Of a stretch of 37,746 bases of DNA, positions 1 to 33,695 are shown piece after piece (the stretch's first letter is position 1; every line of letters starts with the position of its first letter). The stretch spans positions 1-37,746 of the forward strand of contig RXJJ01000020.1 in the NCBI GenBank assembly GCA_003963145.1. Reading direction: 5' to 3'. A program made the translations under genes and the position numbers. The DNA is from Bradyrhizobiaceae bacterium (GTDB lineage: Bacteria; Pseudomonadota; Alphaproteobacteria; Rhizobiales; Xanthobacteraceae). The notes below the pieces were generated by a model, which saw nothing but the letters and a program-made list of their open reading frames with translations, did no database searches and had not been told where the DNA came from.

Positions 1-73
1 TGCAGCAATTGCCGATGGAGTTCGCGGTCGAGGCGCAGAAGCTGATCTCGATCTCGCTGGAAGGAAGTGTGGG

Positions 74-8932: not shown

Positions 8933-11023
8933 TCACACGTCCAGCAAATCTTCCGGCGCGAATTCGGCCTTCTCCGAAATAAACGCAAAACGCGCTTCGG
9001 CCTTGGTTCCCATCAGCCGCTCCACGGAATCGGCCGTGCCTTCACGGTCATCCGCGACCAGCGCGACGCGCAGCATCGTGCGCTTCCTCGGGTCCATGGT
9101 GGTTTCCTTGAGCTGCGCCGGCATCATCTCGCCAAGACCTTTGAATCGGCCGATATCGACCTTGGCGTTGGCGTGAAATTCGTTTTTCAGAAGTTCGTCG
9201 CGATGCTTTTCATCGCGCGCATAGACCGTCTTGCTGCCATGGGTGAGGCGATAGAGCGGGGGCACGGCGAGATAGAGATGGCCCTCGTCGATCAGCTTGG
9301 GCATCTGCCGGTAGAAGAAGGTAATGAGCAGCGAGGCGATGTGCGCGCCGTCGACGTCGGCATCGGTCATGATGATGATGCGGGCGTAGCGCAAATCCTC
9401 TTCGCGGTAGTGCGCGCCGGTGCCCGAGCCAATTGCCTGGATGAGATCCGAGAGCTGCGCGTTTTGCGTGATCTTGTCGCGCGTCGCGGAAGCGACGTTG
9501 AGAATCTTGCCGCGCAGCGGTAGGACGGCCTGCGTCTTGCGGTCGCGCGCCTGCTTGGCGCTGCCGCCCGCCGAGTCGCCCTCGACGATAAAAAGTTCGG
9601 AGCCCTCGGTTGCCGTATTTGTGCAGTCGGCCAGCTTGCCGGGCAGCCGCAATTTTTTCACGGCGGTCTTGCGCGAGATTTCCTTTTCCGCGCGGCGGCG
9701 CAAACGCTCGTCCGCGCGCTCGACCACGAACTCGAGAAGTTTGTTGGCCTGAAGCGGATTGCCGGTCAGCCAGTGATCGAAGGGGTCCTTGACCGCCTGT
9801 TCGACGATCCTCTGCGCTTCGGCGGTCGCGAGGCGGTCCTTGGTCTGTCCCTGGAATTCCGGCTCGCGCACGAACACCGACAGCATGACCGCTGCGCCGA
9901 CCATGACGTCCTCGGACGTGATGGACGCGGCCTTTTTTCCCTGTCCGATCCGCTCGGCATAGTCCTTCAGGCCACGCAGCAGCGCGCTGCGCATGCCGGC
10001 CTCGTGCGTACCACCATCGGGCGTCGGTACCGTGTTGGTATAGGACGACATGAATCCGTCCGCGTCGGCGGTCCATGCCACGGCCCACTCGCACGCGCCA
10101 TGGGCGCCGTTGCGGCCTGACTTGCCCGAGAAAATATCGGGATGGACCAGCGTGTCGGCGTGAATTGCCGCAGCGAGATAGTCTTTCAAGCCGCCCGGAA
10201 AATGGAATGTGTCCTCGGCCGGGACGTCCTCGATGCCCTTGAGCAATTCGGGGTCGCAGCGCCAGCGGATTTCGACGCCGCCGAACAGATAGGCTTTCGA
10301 GCGCGCCATCTTGAACAGGCGCTGCGGTTTGAACGCTGCCTTTGCGCCGAAAATCTCGGCATCCGGCTTGAAGCGGATGCTGGTGCCGCGCCGATTGCTG
10401 ACCTTGCCGAGCTCTTCCAGTTTGCCCTTCGGCTTGCCGCGCTCGAAGGTCATTCGGTAGAGCTTCTGGTTGCGCGCGACTTCGACCACAAGCTGCGTCG
10501 AAAGCGCGTTCACCACGGACACGCCGACGCCATGCAGACCGCCCGAGGTCTCGTAGACCTTGGAGTCGAATTTGCCGCCGGCGTGCAGCGTGCACATGAT
10601 GATCTCGAGCGCCGACTTGTTCTTGAACTTCGGATGCGGATCGATGGGAATGCCGCGGCCGTTATCGATGACGGTCAGAAATCCATCGGCGCCGAGATGG
10701 ACCTCGATGAAGGTAGCGTGGCCTGCCAGCGCCTCGTCCATCGAGTTGTCGATGACTTCGGCGAACAGGTGATGCAGCGCCTTCTCGTCCGTGCCGCCGA
10801 TATACATGCCGGGACGGCGGCGGACCGGCTCGAGCCCTTCCAGAACCTCGATGTCACGAGCGGTGTAACCGGCCTCAGCGCTCGACCCGCGCGCGGCGGA
10901 TGTGGCGGCGCCACGCGCCTTGCGCTCGTTGGCGGCAAACAGATCGCCCGCGCCCTTGGACTTGGCTGTGGGTTTGACGGCCGTTTTGGCCGCGGTTTTG
11001 GCGGACTTTGCGTTTGCTTTCAT
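8933..11023 (-). CDS. parE: DNA topoisomerase IV subunit B (ParE)
   Basis: About 696 residues. It has the GHKL ATPase (EVIDNSMDEALAGHA, VIDNGRGIPID, GGLHGVGVSVVNALS) and the TOPRIM domain (LFIVEGDSAGGSAKQARDR, ARIIIMTDADVDGAHI). ParE hydrolyses ATP to drive decatenation of daughter chromosomes with ParC. ParE rather than GyrB is favoured by its overall length near 690 and the RRRPGMYIGGTDEKALHHLF stretch. The N-terminus has an Ala/Lys-rich low-complexity leader of about 35 residues. I took ATG 11023 (MKANAKSAK); ATG 11035 would add four residues. It stands alone on this strand. parC is not in the window. Confidence 0.93.
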   Translation of the reverse strand: MKANAKSAKTAAKTAVKPTAKSKGAGDLFAANERKARGAATSAARGSSAEAGYTARDIEVLEGLEPVRRRPGMYIGGTDEKALHHLFAEVIDNSMDEALAGHATFIEVHLGADGFLTVIDNGRGIPIDPHPKFKNKSALEIIMCTLHAGGKFDSKVYETSGGLHGVGVSVVNALSTQLVVEVARNQKLYRMTFERGKPKGKLEELGKVSNRRGTSIRFKPDAEIFGAKAAFKPQRLFKMARSKAYLFGGVEIRWRCDPELLKGIEDVPAEDTFHFPGGLKDYLAAAIHADTLVHPDIFSGKSGRNGAHGACEWAVAWTADADGFMSSYTNTVPTPDGGTHEAGMRSALLRGLKDYAERIGQGKKAASITSEDVMVGAAVMLSVFVREPEFQGQTKDRLATAEAQRIVEQAVKDPFDHWLTGNPLQANKLLEFVVERADERLRRRAEKEISRKTAVKKLRLPGKLADCTNTATEGSELFIVEGDSAGGSAKQARDRKTQAVLPLRGKILNVASATRDKITQNAQLSDLIQAIGSGTGAHYREEDLRYARIIIMTDADVDGAHIASLLITFFYRQMPKLIDEGHLYLAVPPLYRLTHGSKTVYARDEKHRDELLKNEFHANAKVDIGRFKGLGEMMPAQLKETTMDPRKRTMLRVALVADDREGTADSVERLMGTKAEARFAFISEKAEFAPEDLLDV

Positions 11024-11264
11024 GGGCTTTCGCATATGTGTATATCTTGTAGGTTTCTTCGCCGGGGCGAATCGGCTTTGCCACTATGCCATGAATGCAT
11101 CGGCAATAGACGCTGGCCGGAACGTGATTGGCATGGAGCTGGCGGTCCTCATATGGGTGGAGACAGCCAGACGGAACAGGAATTTGAAAATTAGAAGGCA
11201 ATTGCGTCAGGGATATGTGCGCCGTCACGGGGCTGTTCCGGCCTGTCGGCGATAAGGGATTGTG

Positions 11265-11801
11265 ATGGGTGTTGAAAATATGGTCCACGAGCTTGTCGGC
11301 TTCGTGAAGGACCATCAGGGGTGGGCGGCTCCCATCGTTTTCGTGTTGGCATTCGGCGAGTCGCTGGCTTTCATTTCGCTGTTGGTCCCGGCATGGAGCG
11401 CCTTGATCGGCGTCGGCGCGCTGATAGGTGCGTCGGACATCAGCTTCTGGCCGGTGTGGATCGCAAGTGCCCTCGGCGCGGCGCTCGGTGACTGGCTTTC
11501 TTATTGGCTTGGCTATGTCTTCAAGGACCGGGTCGCGAACGTCTGGCCGTTGTCCCGCCATCCGCAGGTGCTTCCGCGTGCGGAAAAATTCATGAAGTCC
11601 TGGGGCGTGCCCAGCATCTTCATCGGGCGGTTTTTCGGACCCTTGCGCGCCGCGGTGCCTCTGGTCGCCGGCATTTTCGAAATGGATTACTGGCGTTTTC
11701 AGATCGCCAATTTCAGCTCCGCCTTTGTCTGGGCCGCAACGCTTCTGCTGTTCGGCGACGTTGCATCGAAGCTGGTCGCGATGCTCTGGCGCGCTTTGTG
11801 A
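11265..11801 (+). CDS. DedA-family membrane protein
   Basis: 178 residues with four to five hydrophobic segments. DedA hallmarks are FGESLAFISLLVPAW near the N-terminus, the glycine-rich GAALGDWLSYWLGY, and GRFFGPLRAAVPLVAG carrying the conserved Arg residues. DedA proteins act in the inner membrane in lipid carrier (undecaprenyl phosphate or phospholipid) flipping and envelope homeostasis; the specific substrate here is unknown. ATG 11265 is preferred over the adjacent GTG 11262. It is about 240 bases from parE, divergently oriented, and 270 bases upstream of argC, which has its own predicted promoter. Confidence 0.88.
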   Translation: MGVENMVHELVGFVKDHQGWAAPIVFVLAFGESLAFISLLVPAWSALIGVGALIGASDISFWPVWIASALGAALGDWLSYWLGYVFKDRVANVWPLSRHPQVLPRAEKFMKSWGVPSIFIGRFFGPLRAAVPLVAGIFEMDYWRFQIANFSSAFVWAATLLLFGDVASKLVAMLWRAL

Positions 11802-11832
11802 TATTCGCGTGACGGCGCGCCGCGATACGATC

Positions 11833-11861
11833 TTGACCCATGGGGAGCGTGGACCTATATC
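11833..11861 (+). promoter_or_regulatory. Predicted promoter of the argC leader transcript
   Basis: TTGACC at 11833-11838 and TATATC at 11856-11861 with a 17-base spacer. The expected start site is about 11867-11869, which coincides with the A of the ATG of the 24-codon ORF. The leader to argC would then be about 204 nt. This is one of the best promoter matches in the window. Confidence 0.6.
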
Positions 11862-11868
11862 CGCGTTC

Positions 11869-11943
11869 ATGACCGACGCATCGACCAGATTGAATCAGCG
11901 CCGCCGCCGTATCGTCACGGCATGGGCGGCCGGTCGCGTTTAA
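11869..11943 (+). CDS. Arg-rich 24-residue candidate leader peptide upstream of argC
   Basis: Small ORF of 24 codons ending TAA. Six codons are Arg: AGA at codon 7, CGC CGC CGC CGT at 11-14 and CGC at 23; the peptide contains NQRRRRIVTAW. The ATG lies seven bases beyond the -10 of the predicted promoter, so the transcript may be leaderless, as reported for the trp leader peptide of Sinorhizobium. Downstream RNA can form alternative pairings (11918-11924 with 11954-11960; 11957-11961 with 11974-11978; 11974-11978 with 12015-12019). Position before an arginine biosynthesis gene suggests Arg-dependent control. I know of no described arginine leader of this type in this family, and Arg runs can occur by chance in GC-rich DNA. 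Confidence 0.45.
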   Translation: MTDASTRLNQRRRRIVTAWAAGRV

Positions 11944-12072
11944 GATCGCTCGTCATGCCGCTGGAAATGGTCCGCGGCGTCTTGTTTCTCTCCCCTTGTT
12001 TCGTTCGCCAAACTGCCGCAAGACCTTATCCCGCAGCGCTTCGTTTTGAACCGCACGCGTAAGGACCCACTC

Positions 12073-13131
12073 ATGGCTGAGAAGAAGAAAATCGGCATCC
12101 TCGGCGCCTCGGGCTACACCGGCGCCGAACTCGTGCGGCTGTTGCTGCGCCACCCGCGCGTGCAGATCGAACTCCTGACGGCGGACCGGCGCGCCGGGCA
12201 GGCCATGGGCGATGTGTTTCCGCAGTTCGCACCTTACGATCTGCCGCGCCTTGTCACGATCGAAAGCGTGGATTGGGCAACCGCGGGTCTCGATCTTGTG
12301 TTTTGCGCGCTTCCGCACGCGACCACGCAGACGGTGCTGAAGGATGTCTTGACCAAAGCGCCTGCGACGAAGGTGGTCGACCTGTCGGCGGATTTCCGGC
12401 TTCAGGACCCGGCGGCCTATGCCAAATGGTATGGCCACGAACATCACGCCCTCGAGCTGCAGAAAGAGGCGGTGTACGGTCTTGTGGAAATGTACCGGCG
12501 CGATATCCGCAAGGCGCGGCTGGTCGCCAATCCCGGCTGCTACACGACCTGCGCGCAGTTGCCGCTGATCCCGCTGCTCAAGGCGAAGGCGATCAAGTCG
12601 GATGAGATCGTGATCGACGCGAAGTCAGGTGTGACGGGAGCGGGGCGTTCGCCCCGCGAAGACATCTTGTTCTCGGAGGTTTCGGAAGGCTTCCATGCCT
12701 ATGGCGTCGGTCATCACCGGCATATGGCGGAGCTCGATCAGGAATTCTCGAAGGCCGCCGGCAAGGAGGTGGTTGTGAGTTTCACGCCGCATCTCGTGCC
12801 GATGAACAGGGGAATTTTCTCGACGATCTATGTGCGCGGCCGGCGCGATAAAAACGCGCAGGAACTCTACGCCATCCTGTCGCGGCAGTATGAGAAGGAG
12901 CCGTTCGTTTATGTGCTGCCGTTCGGACGCATGCCGCAGTCGCGTCATGTGCGCGGCTCGAACATGACGTTCATCGGCGTTGCCAACGACCGGCAGCCGG
13001 GCCGGGCGATCATCATCTCGACTCTCGACAACCTCACCAAGGGGGCATCCGGGCAGGCGGTGCAGAACATGAATGCGATGCTCGGCTTTGCCGAAACCAC
13101 CGGCATCGATCAGCCGGCGATGTTTCCATAA
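12073..13131 (+). CDS. argC: N-acetyl-gamma-glutamyl-phosphate reductase (ArgC)
   Basis: 352 residues. Catalyses NADPH-dependent reduction of N-acetylglutamyl phosphate to the semialdehyde, the third step of arginine synthesis. The nucleotide-binding motif GILGASGYTGAELVRLLLRHP is at the N-terminus; the catalytic Cys is in VANPGCYTT; GVGHHRHMAEL carries the conserved His. Start ATG 12073 (MAEKKKIG) has TAAGGAC about eight bases upstream; an upstream TTG at 12046 is in frame but unlikely. It appears monocistronic, ending at a strong hairpin terminator. The leader contains an Arg-rich ORF, see the separate entry. Confidence 0.96.
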   Translation: MAEKKKIGILGASGYTGAELVRLLLRHPRVQIELLTADRRAGQAMGDVFPQFAPYDLPRLVTIESVDWATAGLDLVFCALPHATTQTVLKDVLTKAPATKVVDLSADFRLQDPAAYAKWYGHEHHALELQKEAVYGLVEMYRRDIRKARLVANPGCYTTCAQLPLIPLLKAKAIKSDEIVIDAKSGVTGAGRSPREDILFSEVSEGFHAYGVGHHRHMAELDQEFSKAAGKEVVVSFTPHLVPMNRGIFSTIYVRGRRDKNAQELYAILSRQYEKEPFVYVLPFGRMPQSRHVRGSNMTFIGVANDRQPGRAIIISTLDNLTKGASGQAVQNMNAMLGFAETTGIDQPAMFP

Positions 13132-13165: not shown

Positions 13166-13192
13166 AAAAGGGACCGCATTGCGGTCCCTTTT
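13166..13192. terminator. Intrinsic terminator between argC and the MAPEG gene
   Basis: Perfect 12-base stem AAAAGGGACCGC / GCGGTCCCTTTT with a three-base loop; T-run on both strands because the stem ends are A/T. It lies 35 bases after the argC stop and 23 bases after the minus-strand MAPEG stop, so it can end both convergent transcripts. Confidence 0.9.
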
Positions 13193-13214: not shown

Positions 13215-13613
13215 TTACATCGCCTTGAAGATTGCCAGCGCCAGAACGGCCTGAGCTGCAAAGCCGACCAGAAAGCATACCGTGCGCAGAACCGGCAGCC
13301 CGAACGTATAGACGATGACGTGGGCAAGGCGGGACCAGAAGAACACGGCGCAGGCCAGCACCGTCCATTTCGTGGAGTAGTCGGCCGCGTTCAGGATCAA
13401 CACCAGCACGGCAAAGATAACGAGATTTTCCACCGCGTTGTCGTGCGAGAACATCATGCGGTTGGCCCATTCGTCCTGGGGCTTGGCGTCGCGCGAGGGG
13501 TTGGCGAGCGTACCGGCGATGCCACGAACCTTGATGCGGTCGAGCGTGTAGGGAATCCACAAAATTCCCGTCAGAATCGTTGTAAGGGCCAGCCAGAATA
13601 ATTCGCGCGTCAT
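13215..13613 (-). CDS. MAPEG-family membrane protein
   Basis: 132 residues with four hydrophobic segments (about 5-23, 60-78, 82-100 and 110-128). The conserved MAPEG region appears as RMMFSHDNAVENLVIFAVLVLIL and FWSRLAHVIVYTFGLPVLRTV. The family includes glutathione-dependent membrane enzymes; in bacteria the function is mostly unknown. It is downstream of phaC on the same strand with a gap of 221 bases, so co-transcription is possible but not shown. Stop is shielded by a shared terminator. Function is not inferred further. Confidence 0.85.
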   Translation of the reverse strand: MTRELFWLALTTILTGILWIPYTLDRIKVRGIAGTLANPSRDAKPQDEWANRMMFSHDNAVENLVIFAVLVLILNAADYSTKWTVLACAVFFWSRLAHVIVYTFGLPVLRTVCFLVGFAAQAVLALAIFKAM

Positions 13614-13834: not shown

Positions 13835-15664
13835 TCAGGCCCGAACCCTGACATAGCTGCCGGGCGCGTCCTCGATCGGCTCCATCACGCCGCCGCCGGG
13901 CTCGCGTGCCGGGACGGTCTCGGCGTCCGTCGTCTCAAGCCACGCCCGCCAGTCTGTCCACCACGAGCCCTTGTGCTCACGTGCCCCCGCCAGCCAGCCA
14001 TCGAGCGTGGCGTCGGCGACGCTATCGTTGATCCAGTACTGGTACTTGTTGTTGGCGGGGGGATTGACGACGCCCGCAATATGCCCAGAGCCGGACAGCA
14101 CGAAACGCACCGGGCCACCAAAAAACTGCGAACCGTAAAAAACCGATTTGGCCGGGGCGATGTGATCCTCGCGGGTCGCGAGATTGTAAATCGGCACCTT
14201 CACCTTCGACAGATCGAGCAGGGTGTTATCCAGAACCATGGTTCCGGCCGAAAGCCGGTTTTCCAGATAGCAGTTGCGCAGATAATAGGAATGATTGGCG
14301 GCCGGCATCCGGGTCGCATCCGAGTTCCAGTGCAGAAGGTCGAATGTCGAAGGCATCTGACCCTTCAGGTAATTATTCACGACATAGGGCCAGACGAGAT
14401 CGTTCGAGCGCAGCATGTTGAAGGCCATCGCCATGCGCGAACCTTCGAGCACGCCAGCCTGTTGCATCTCCTGTTCGAGCGCCGCGATCTGCTCTTCGTC
14501 GACGAACACCAGAAGGTCGCCCGCATGGGTGAAGTCCACCTGTGCGGTGAGCAGGGTTGCGGACGTCACGCGCACGCGGCGTTTTTCAGCAAGCCAGGCC
14601 AGGGTCGCGGCGAGCAGGGTACCGCCGACGCAATAACCCAGCGCATGCACTTTCATTTCGCCGGTAATTTTCTCGATCACGTCCATCGCGGCGAGGGGAC
14701 CCTGCGCCATGTAGTTTTCGAAGGTCTTGGAGCCCAGCGTTTTGTCGGGATTGACCCACGAAATCACGAAGACGGTGAGGCCCTGATCGACGCACCACTT
14801 GATGTAGGATTTTTCCGGCTTGAGATCGAGAATGTAGAATTTGTTGATCCACGGCGGCACGATCAGAAGCGGCGTGCGCAGCACGGTCTCGGTGCTCGGC
14901 GCATACTGGATCAGTTGCATGAGATCGTTCTGAAACACGACCTTGCCGGGCGTCAGCGCCAGATGCGTTCCGACCTCCAGATCGGCCGCGGTTTGACGGA
15001 TTTTCAGCAGGCCGTTGCCGGCGCCGATGTCTTCGGCCAGCATCTGCATGCCGCGAACGAGATTTTCGCCGTTGCTGGCGAAGGTCTGCCGCAGCACCTC
15101 CGGATTGGTGAGAACGAAATTCGACGGTGCGATCGCGTTGCTGATTTGCTGAATGTAGAACTGTGCTTTTAGCCGCGTATGCGGATCGAGGTCCTTGGCG
15201 TCGCGCACGAGTTCGTCGGCCCACTTCGCGGTCAGGAGATAGGCCTGCATGACGAAGTCGAAAAACTGGTTGGCTCGCCAATCCTTGTCCTGAAAGCGCT
15301 TGTCGCGCGGATTGGGCTCGATTGTCGGCTCGGATGCCTCGCCGGCCAGGCGCTTCATCGCGCTGCCCCACAGGTCGAGATAGGATTTGCCGAGCCGGGT
15401 CTGCAAATCGGCGGCGCGTTTCTGATCGCCCATCCAGTAATCGAAGACGGCGTAAAGCGTCTTGACGATTTCGCCGAGTTCGCCCGGGGTACGATCGCCA
15501 TTTTCACGCGGCTGCAGATAGGCGCTCAGCGCGCGTCCCGTATTTTCCATCGCGCGCGCGAGATTGAGCGCGAAGGTTTCGGGATCGAACGTCTTTCCGT
15601 CGGTCGCACCGCTGCTGCTGGAACCGTTTGATGCGGAGTTTGGCGTGACGACTGTTTCACTCAT
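13835..15664 (-). CDS. phaC: Class I poly(3-hydroxyalkanoate) synthase (PhaC)
   Basis: About 609 residues, as expected for class I. It polymerises (R)-3-hydroxyacyl-CoA on the surface of PHA granules. The lipase-like box is GYCVGG (nucleophile Cys near residue 340); the catalytic Asp is in ATREDHIAPAKS and the His in GSGHIAGVVNPP. WINKFYILDL and GLTVFVISWVNPD are PhaC hallmarks. I chose ATG 15664 (MSETVVTP); the frame is open to 15805 with ATGs at 15742 and 15805, but those leader residues are not PhaC-like. No strong ribosome-binding site precedes it. The other PHA genes (phaAB, phaR, phaZ) are not in the window. The gene is divergent from the lipoprotein gene at 15921. Confidence 0.94.
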   Translation of the reverse strand: MSETVVTPNSASNGSSSSGATDGKTFDPETFALNLARAMENTGRALSAYLQPRENGDRTPGELGEIVKTLYAVFDYWMGDQKRAADLQTRLGKSYLDLWGSAMKRLAGEASEPTIEPNPRDKRFQDKDWRANQFFDFVMQAYLLTAKWADELVRDAKDLDPHTRLKAQFYIQQISNAIAPSNFVLTNPEVLRQTFASNGENLVRGMQMLAEDIGAGNGLLKIRQTAADLEVGTHLALTPGKVVFQNDLMQLIQYAPSTETVLRTPLLIVPPWINKFYILDLKPEKSYIKWCVDQGLTVFVISWVNPDKTLGSKTFENYMAQGPLAAMDVIEKITGEMKVHALGYCVGGTLLAATLAWLAEKRRVRVTSATLLTAQVDFTHAGDLLVFVDEEQIAALEQEMQQAGVLEGSRMAMAFNMLRSNDLVWPYVVNNYLKGQMPSTFDLLHWNSDATRMPAANHSYYLRNCYLENRLSAGTMVLDNTLLDLSKVKVPIYNLATREDHIAPAKSVFYGSQFFGGPVRFVLSGSGHIAGVVNPPANNKYQYWINDSVADATLDGWLAGAREHKGSWWTDWRAWLETTDAETVPAREPGGGVMEPIEDAPGSYVRVRA

Positions 15665-15867
15665 AGGCGGATGCTTGGCTGACAGGTCTGAATGAAATCC
15701 TTCAACGCGAATTCGTGTCGCCGGATCTCCTGGATTTGGCATAACATGGCATAGTTCGGTTAATGGTGCTTCCTTGCACCGCAGCATGCGTCGCGCTTCG
15801 GTCATAATCGAGCCGCACGGCTGCGCTTTAGAGATACCGTTTGGGTCGCAATGGATTTAATGCTTCG

Positions 15868-33620: not shown

Positions 33621-33695
33621 GCTCCCTTCGTCTATCGGTTAGGACGCCACCCTTTCACGGTGGAGAGAGCGGTTCGATTCCGCTAGGGAGCGCCA
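33621..33695 (+). tRNA. tRNA-Glu (anticodon UUC)
   Basis: Acceptor GCTCCCT pairs with AGGGAGC; D arm GTCT...GGAC; anticodon stem CCACC/GGTGG with the seven-base loop CTTTCAC, so the anticodon is TTC; T arm AGCGG-TTCGATT-CCGCT. The discriminator G at 33692 is followed by an encoded CCA (33693-33695). A complete, normal tRNA. I saw no repeated 3' end nearby that would mark an integrated element. Confidence 0.97.

Follow-up and report, generated by a model that had tools for sequence, protein, structure and literature searches.

The argC gene at this locus raises the question of how its expression is controlled. Searches for the C-terminal domain of ArgR (PF02863) were negative in all 41 genomes examined (the bacterium's own, 24 of its genus and 16 of its order), with 8 of 14 controls positive, and a leader upstream of argC would answer how the gene is controlled in this genome and its 40 relatives. 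The window, by which we mean the whole stretch of DNA analysed, comprises positions 1 to 37,746 of contig RXJJ01000020.1 from a Bradyrhizobiaceae bacterium. A preliminary description of the window had proposed an arginine leader peptide and a switching RNA with argC as their target, and the comparisons presented here support all three elements. The region is probably a leaderless transcription attenuator, ribosome-mediated and responsive to charged arginine tRNA, with argC under its control.

Promoter, leader ORF and pairing segments of the window

Positions 11833-11990 contain, on direct reading of the sequence, a promoter followed at once by an ORF of 24 codons and then rival hairpins, with argC downstream. 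The features are as follows.

11833..11861, + strand: promoter, read directly from the sequence (-35 box TTGACC, 11833-11838; 17-base spacer; -10 box TATATC, 11856-11861)
11869..11943, + strand: leader ORF of 24 codons, MTDASTRLNQRRRRIVTAWAAGRV, with its ATG (11869-11871) 7 bases past the -10 box
11899..11910, + strand: regulatory codons CGC CGC CGC CGT (Arg11-14), of which 11906-11910 doubles as segment 1
11906-11910, + strand: segment 1, pairs with 11917-11921 (helix 1:2)
11917..11925, + strand: segment 2 (ACGGCATGG), pairs with segment 1 or segment 3
11953..11964, + strand: segment 3 (TCATGCCGCTGG), pairs with segment 2 (antiterminator) or segment 4 (terminator)
11972..11980, + strand: segment 4 (CCGCGGCGT), 3′ arm of the terminator-like hairpin
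11980..11991, + strand: T-rich tail TCTTGTTTCTCT, an imperfect U tract and predicted end of the attenuated transcript
12073..13131, + strand: argC, N-acetyl-gamma-glutamyl-phosphate reductase, predicted regulated gene (NCBIfam TIGR01850, 416.8 bits against a cut-off of 233.6)
13166..13192, + strand: hairpin with a T run past argC, seen by eye in the sequence

The promoter, the ORF, its six arginine codons and their coordinates are all as first described. The arginine codons comprise an AGA, the run CGC CGC CGC CGT (11899-11910) and a further CGC; the rare AGA, which had been singled out, is present in the window's ORF but by eye is not conserved in relatives. This promoter is not listed by a stock scan of the window, which accepts only T as the sixth base of the -10 box. 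The strict pattern TTGAC-18-TATA-7..11-ATG occurs four times in the genome, and only the occurrence in the window opens a short ORF with an arginine run. The window has 143 ORFs of 12-30 codons that start with ATG; five of them contain three consecutive arginines (RRR) and one contains RRRR, the leader ORF itself.

In the window and 75 related loci, the promoter spacer is 17 bases in 73 cases and 18 in three (the scoring slightly favours 17), and the ATG lies 6-9 bases past the end of the -10 box in 76 of 76. As suggested earlier, the ORF is probably leaderless, with transcription predicted to start at or beside the ATG.

The hairpin at 13166..13192 makes argC look monocistronic in the window. 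Neighbouring genes are parE (8933-11035, - strand) and a DedA/VTT membrane protein gene (11262-11801, + strand) on one side, and genes for a MAPEG protein (13215-13613, - strand) and a PhaC polyhydroxyalkanoate synthase (13835-15805, - strand) on the other.

Leaders in related bacteria and the genes behind them

An ArgC-like match is present in 61 of 61 genomes, the bacterium's own included, seven of the matches being weak and partial. The nearest named argC loci belong to Afipia-like Xanthobacteraceae in the wide sense. Among named loci (the best 80 of 209), a leader with an arginine run lies upstream of argC in 76. Of these, 75 were found by a script (three arginines within four codons; RRR in 70), and one, L078, through the covariance model R1, which was built from 71 leaders; the L078 leader sits further upstream (MINLATSIIARRRRILAAGGDMRA). 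Promoter and ORF are present with a broken arginine run in L057 and L111, and L085 and L133 have no leader at the argC locus.

Because the script's picks for the named loci demanded arginine codons and an ATG, a second set was built, consisting of 59 hand-picked R1 matches, none from the window's genus, of which 13 repeat rows of the model and 46 are new. Here promoter spacing was the sole basis for choosing the ORF, and ATG, GTG and TTG were all accepted as starts. An arginine run is found in 58 of the 59 loci (45 of the 46 new ones), and all 46 new loci start with ATG; the set is not wholly independent, because R1 itself knows the arginine run. Conservation of the ORF and its run, proposed at the outset as a check, is seen in both sets (76/80 named and 45/46 new loci). 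R1 matches 158 of 248 genomes of the family at E ≤ 0.001, a total that includes the genomes from which the model was built, and six of these matches are poorer than 1e-10. Second matches occur in nine genomes, eight of them weak (E 1e-4 to 1e-3) and the ninth, in G163, at 9e-9. In L166 (G036) a leader remnant before argC seems to be split by an inverted-repeat insertion and gives two weak R1 matches.

The alignment A2 (71 rows) omits L083, L092, L123 and L068 (near-identical), L099 (divergent), and L057, L078, L085, L111 and L133. All 152 gaps between the ATG and the end of the arginine run in A2 are 3 or 6 bases long, a pattern favoured by the choice of rows for an in-frame run; behind the run, gaps are of many lengths. 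The 284 run-codon cells hold 212 CGC, 54 CGT or CGA, 17 non-arginine codons and one gap. The peptide behind the run varies freely and may end early (MIEPANRTLRRRRFAI, L062), and in 71 of 71 rows the leader stop codon lies 6-25 bases upstream of segment 3. Adding 45 of the 46 new loci to these 71 gives a set of 116 leaders, in which the segments of L081, L090, L281 and L301 were misplaced or shifted by the script and were kept in. The recurrence of this arrangement in many related bacteria makes the leader probably a switch.

The range of the leader extends beyond the window's family. In a second family of the same order (f20), a similar arginine leader is found in 12 of 12 genomes; it has 16 codons, two to four consecutive arginines and a TTGACA-17 promoter whose -10 box differs, and its hairpin precedes T6-T8. 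Since R1 matches these loci too (L210, E 6e-10; L202, 1e-7; L206, 6e-7), common descent with the leader of the window's family is likely. R1 matches are present in 32 of 297 genomes of an order-wide sample, ten of them strong and from the window's own family and 22 weak (E 4e-8 or poorer). Twenty further upstream regions yielded one standard leader (L183) and one leader of the second-family type (L169). A class-wide sample of 115 genomes, of which 83 have an argC-like match, gave no convincing leader in the 600 bases upstream of the 29 loci scanned; 26 of these were placed at the argC start and three (L218, L226, L233) were misplaced by contig ends. In many of these other Alphaproteobacteria (L219, L220, L223, L235-L237 and others of L217-L245), the gene ahead of argC is rpsI, which encodes an arginine-rich C-terminus (KARRSFQFSKR).

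The gene next to the leader, as picked by script, is argC in 61 of the 116 leaders, a paiB-like gene in 48 and undecided in seven. Both paiB-like genes that were tested match FMN_bind_2 (PF04299). Such a gene stands between leader and argC in a large clade (e.g. L020:821-1501 and L255:331-1014), and in L255 it overlaps the start of the next gene, argC_other. Whether directly or behind a paiB-like gene, argC (TIGR01850) or argC_other (TIGR01851) is found downstream of the leader; the ArgC behind the paiB-like gene is of the TIGR01851 form in several genera (L255 and L294; L260 by eye). The two ArgC types are distantly related, and the leader precedes either, so that what appears constant from these gene assignments is the leader together with the pathway step, not the enzyme family.

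Rival helices and the position of the ribosome

Helix 2:3 joins 11917-11925 to 11953-11961, and helix 3:4 joins 11955-11961 and 11963-11964 to 11972-11980 (window coordinates). Both were compared with shuffled controls on A2. For 2:3, 87.4% of positions are paired against 83.6% in shuffles, with a covariation score of 0.208 against 0.140 (0/500 shuffles); for 3:4 the corresponding values are 96.4% against 92.6%, and 0.172 against 0.095 (0/500). Helix 1:2 is 92.4% paired, with a score of 0.225 against 0.187 (0/500), and the only one of its pairs to change on both sides involves the third base of the last arginine codon. Numbers of pairs changed on both sides are less firm, being reached by 10 (2:3), 200 (3:4) and 244 (1:2) of 500 shuffles. 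These counts are not probabilities, because the shuffles do not keep relatedness.

Segments 3 and 4 vary jointly (ATGCCGC/GCGGCAT, GTGCCGC/GCGGCAC, CTGCCGC/GCGGCAG), and segment 2 follows the changes of segment 3 in part, often through G-U pairs. On A3 (47 rows, the window and the 46 new loci), 3:4 holds, with 93.3% paired and 0/500 shuffles; 2:3 is 85.2% paired against at most 59.7% when slid, and its covariation is weaker, the score being reached by 40 and the pair types by 205 of 500 shuffles. When partners were swapped among the 116 leaders, own partners beat swapped ones for both 2:3 and 3:4 (0/2000 permutations each). The rival helices alone are stabler than shuffles (z -3.3 and -3.1; 3:4 hairpin z -3.3), whereas longer single-sequence folds are not (z 0.39, 0.26, -1.0 and -0.15). 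An RNAalifold consensus, computed with no structure given, contains four pairs of 2:3 and two of 1:2; the 3:4 stem is replaced there by pairing of segment 4 with the arginine run. The predicted antiterminator 2:3 and terminator-like 3:4 are mutually exclusive and both are conserved, 2:3 more weakly in the second set.

All three pairings of the preliminary description are present in the window's sequence. The third of them (11974-11978 with 12015-12019) does not generalise and was dropped from the mechanism: a GCCGC partner occurs 10-55 bases past segment 4 in only 22 of the 116 leaders, 12 of which are the window and near relatives, and it lies beyond the predicted end of the attenuated transcript.

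The effect of the ribosome was modelled by folding the RNA behind it alone, codon by codon, with the edge set at the first A-site base + 12. Across the 116 leaders, the median probability of 3:4 is 0.12 at the first arginine codon, 0.19 at the second, 0.71 at the third and 0.90 at the fourth and beyond; when the stretch from the run to segment 3 is shuffled, it is 0.89 at the first arginine codon. With no ribosome, 3:4 exceeds 0.5 in 82 of 116. There are exceptions, 3:4 exceeding 0.5 at the first arginine codon in 27 of 116 leaders and never reaching it at the stop in 8 of 116. The second family behaves similarly (mean 0.18 at the first arginine codon and 0.92 at the stop), with L206 (0.97 at the first arginine codon) and L205 (0.30 at the stop) as exceptions. 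In the folding model, the RNA moves from 2:3 to 3:4 at the arginine run as the ribosome advances.

In the window itself the probability of 3:4 is 0.29, 0.62 and 0.72 at the first three arginine codons and 0.99 two codons past the run, and because of the first three values its switch is shallow. At 30 °C its two forms lie 0.1 kcal/mol apart, and behind Arg11 at 37 °C the best fold contains 3:4 and the centroid 2:3. These are equilibrium folds, and real RNA folds during synthesis; since segment 4 is made later, folding during synthesis should favour 2:3.

The preliminary description had supposed that stalling at the arginine codons would block the first pairing and free the second. Ribosome-placement folds point to the reverse order. 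RNA polymerase would start at or beside the ATG, and a ribosome could then load directly at the 5′ end of the new RNA, with no need of a Shine-Dalgarno sequence. When arginine is scarce, the ribosome would wait at Arg11 or Arg12, where its edge ends before segment 2 (11917-11925); segment 2 would be free to pair with segment 3, 3:4 could not form and argC would be transcribed. With arginine plentiful, the ribosome would run to the stop codon and cover segment 2, freeing segments 3 and 4 to form the hairpin before the T-rich stretch, and transcription would end at 11980-11991. Overall, waiting at arginine codons would open the switch and running on would close it, the order of a classic attenuator, and the predicted response is to arginine.

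Output of the proposed switch, alternatives and known systems

Whether the output is transcription termination depends on what follows the hairpin. In the window, the 11955-11961/11974-11980 hairpin (-14.3 kcal/mol) is followed by GTCTTGTTTCTC, which is T-rich but broken; a stock scan of the window lists no terminator (1.5 expected by chance). The tract is poor in some relatives too, such as L055 and L082. Across 45 of the 46 new loci, the T fraction in the 14 bases past the hairpin is 0.38, against 0.19 in DNA 180-300 bases behind the ATG. The earlier statement that no T-run terminator is visible is not supported: a 3:4 hairpin with a broken T-rich tail is present, and T6-T8 stands at the same place in the second family. 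Given this T enrichment and the second-family terminators, termination is the most likely output, with a weak tract in the window's own clade.

An alternative with the same arginine sensor is that 3:4 or later pairings affect how the next gene is translated, termination by Rho or the decay of the RNA; the preliminary description had itself allowed for control by translation or Rho. We consider this unlikely, though not negligible: the window's U tract is imperfect, but the T enrichment and the T6-T8 terminators speak for intrinsic termination. A candidate fifth segment, complementary to segment 3, also bears on this alternative. Over all 116 leaders its mean z against shuffles is -1.9, and own partners pair at -17.2 against -16.4 when swapped (0/2000) and -15.3 in control DNA upstream of the promoter. 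In the 48 leaders of the paiB clade, where the complementary segment lies just before the ribosome site and so favours such an output, the own partner gives -19.6 kcal/mol, against -18.6 when swapped (0/1000 as low) and -14.9 in the upstream control. Where argC follows directly (61 leaders), the extra pairing is no stronger than the control (-15.3 against -15.5), which argues against this output there, yet own partners still beat swapped ones (13/1000). As a general feature the fifth segment was rejected, being clearly above the upstream control only where a paiB-like gene follows, and the window gives no signal for it (z -0.1 against shuffles). In several paiB-clade loci (L255, L262, L077, L082 and others), the complement to segment 3 reads GATCCGGCGG or similar and stands immediately ahead of the paiB ribosome site.

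A second alternative, which appears very improbable, is that arginine (or ornithine) is bound by the nascent peptide, which then arrests its ribosome in the manner of fungal AAP and enterobacterial SpeFL. Arginine-sensing, arginine-rich upstream ORFs are indeed known, and according to the available text on Salmonella speF, sensing there is by pausing at arginine codons (PMC6386406). Against it, the sequence behind the run is not conserved (...RRRRFAI* in L062, ...RRRRIVTAWAAGRV* in the window, ...RRRILIQR* in the second family), and the length and position of the run vary, while the codon run and pairing bases are kept. That there is no regulation at all, the ORF being a chance arginine-rich one in GC-rich DNA or part of an unrelated small RNA gene, is hardly credible: GC-rich sequence easily yields arginine codons and hairpins, and whole-leader folds are no better than shuffles, but promoter, frame, run and both helices are conserved and tied to argC.

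An attenuator that reads charged arginine tRNA, the reading we prefer, can be set beside several known systems. Bacterial attenuators are textbook cases for tryptophan, histidine, leucine, isoleucine/valine, threonine and phenylalanine. In the trp leader of Escherichia coli the ORF stops between segments 1 and 2, whereas the argC leader ORF runs through segment 2 and stops before segment 3. Classic attenuators (trp, his, ilv, phe and others) are described, in the available text of one review, as having a codon run in region I and mutually exclusive I:II, II:III and III:IV pairings, with stalling leading to II:III and read-through (PMC1183508); the argC leader is alike in its regulatory codon run, its exclusive pairings and its predicted read-through upon stalling. 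Arginine is not named among attenuators in the available parts of PMC1183508 and PMC1262725, the latter of which names T-boxes for arginine.

There is a close likeness to the leaderless trpL/rnTrpL/peTrpL system of Sinorhizobium. According to the portions of two papers at hand, the first bases of the S. meliloti trp transcript are the ATG of a leader ORF of 14 codons, which bears consecutive codons of the pathway product, its antiterminator and terminator are mutually exclusive, and the Bradyrhizobium japonicum peTrpL has 15 residues (PMC7298713, PMC10117765). The argC leader shares the codon run of the pathway product and the exclusive antiterminator and terminator, with an arginine run and argC here in place of tryptophan codons and trpE there. 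By analogy with rnTrpL, for which alone a trans-acting role is known, a speculative and somewhat doubtful extension is that the attenuated transcript of ~120 bases may also act in trans.

Two further systems share single elements, as far as their available descriptions go. In ORF34/SpeFL of Salmonella and relatives, two consecutive arginine codons in the leader ORF sense arginine via ribosome pausing (PMC6386406), as proposed here, but that leader controls ornithine decarboxylase through Rho, masking of a ribosome site and RNase G; its conserved peptide core and its Shine-Dalgarno site are both without a counterpart seen in the argC leader. The core as printed in the available text (HIRRT*HIMM, PMC6386406) is absent by eye from the leader peptides, and argC, not speF, follows them. 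The alphaproteobacterial upstream ORF uORFC-8-2 before cysS in Rhodobacterales is likewise proposed, in the text available, to sense its cognate amino acid by its codons (PMC8632094), but that amino acid is cysteine and the gene encodes a tRNA synthetase.

Rfam 15 gave no match at E ≤ 1 for 11800-12100, and none at gathering score for nine related loci. The only match at gathering score in the window is a tRNA gene at 33621-33692. Literature searches confined to an open-access library turned up no attenuator for an arginine biosynthesis gene, argC included; the proteobacterial survey of Vitreschak et al. (2004), which lies outside that search, may predict one. In the main text of a Bradyrhizobium start-site paper (PMC4842269), argC, leader peptide and attenuat are all without a hit. 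Devices of this kind are known already; the amino acid and sequence family seem to be new.

The history of the leader can be outlined only tentatively. One Tardiphaga locus (L078:572-3559 of Tardiphaga sp. P9-11) carries the leader, a paiB-like gene, argC_other and argC in tandem (genes named by eye), and looks as if it were caught midway in an enzyme exchange. We would offer as a speculative, somewhat doubtful scenario that the attenuator stayed fixed while the enzyme was swapped between argC and argC_other, both of which stand in tandem in that locus, and that a fifth segment was added in the paiB clade; a single leader ribosome would there govern transcription by way of 3:4 and also, by way of 3:5, how accessible the following gene is.

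Several things make the leader of interest: the amino acid that it would sense; its wide distribution, which takes in relatives from soil or associated with plants, Rhodopseudomonas and Tardiphaga among them; the lack of an ArgR match in the genomes searched; and its possible persistence through an exchange of the enzyme.
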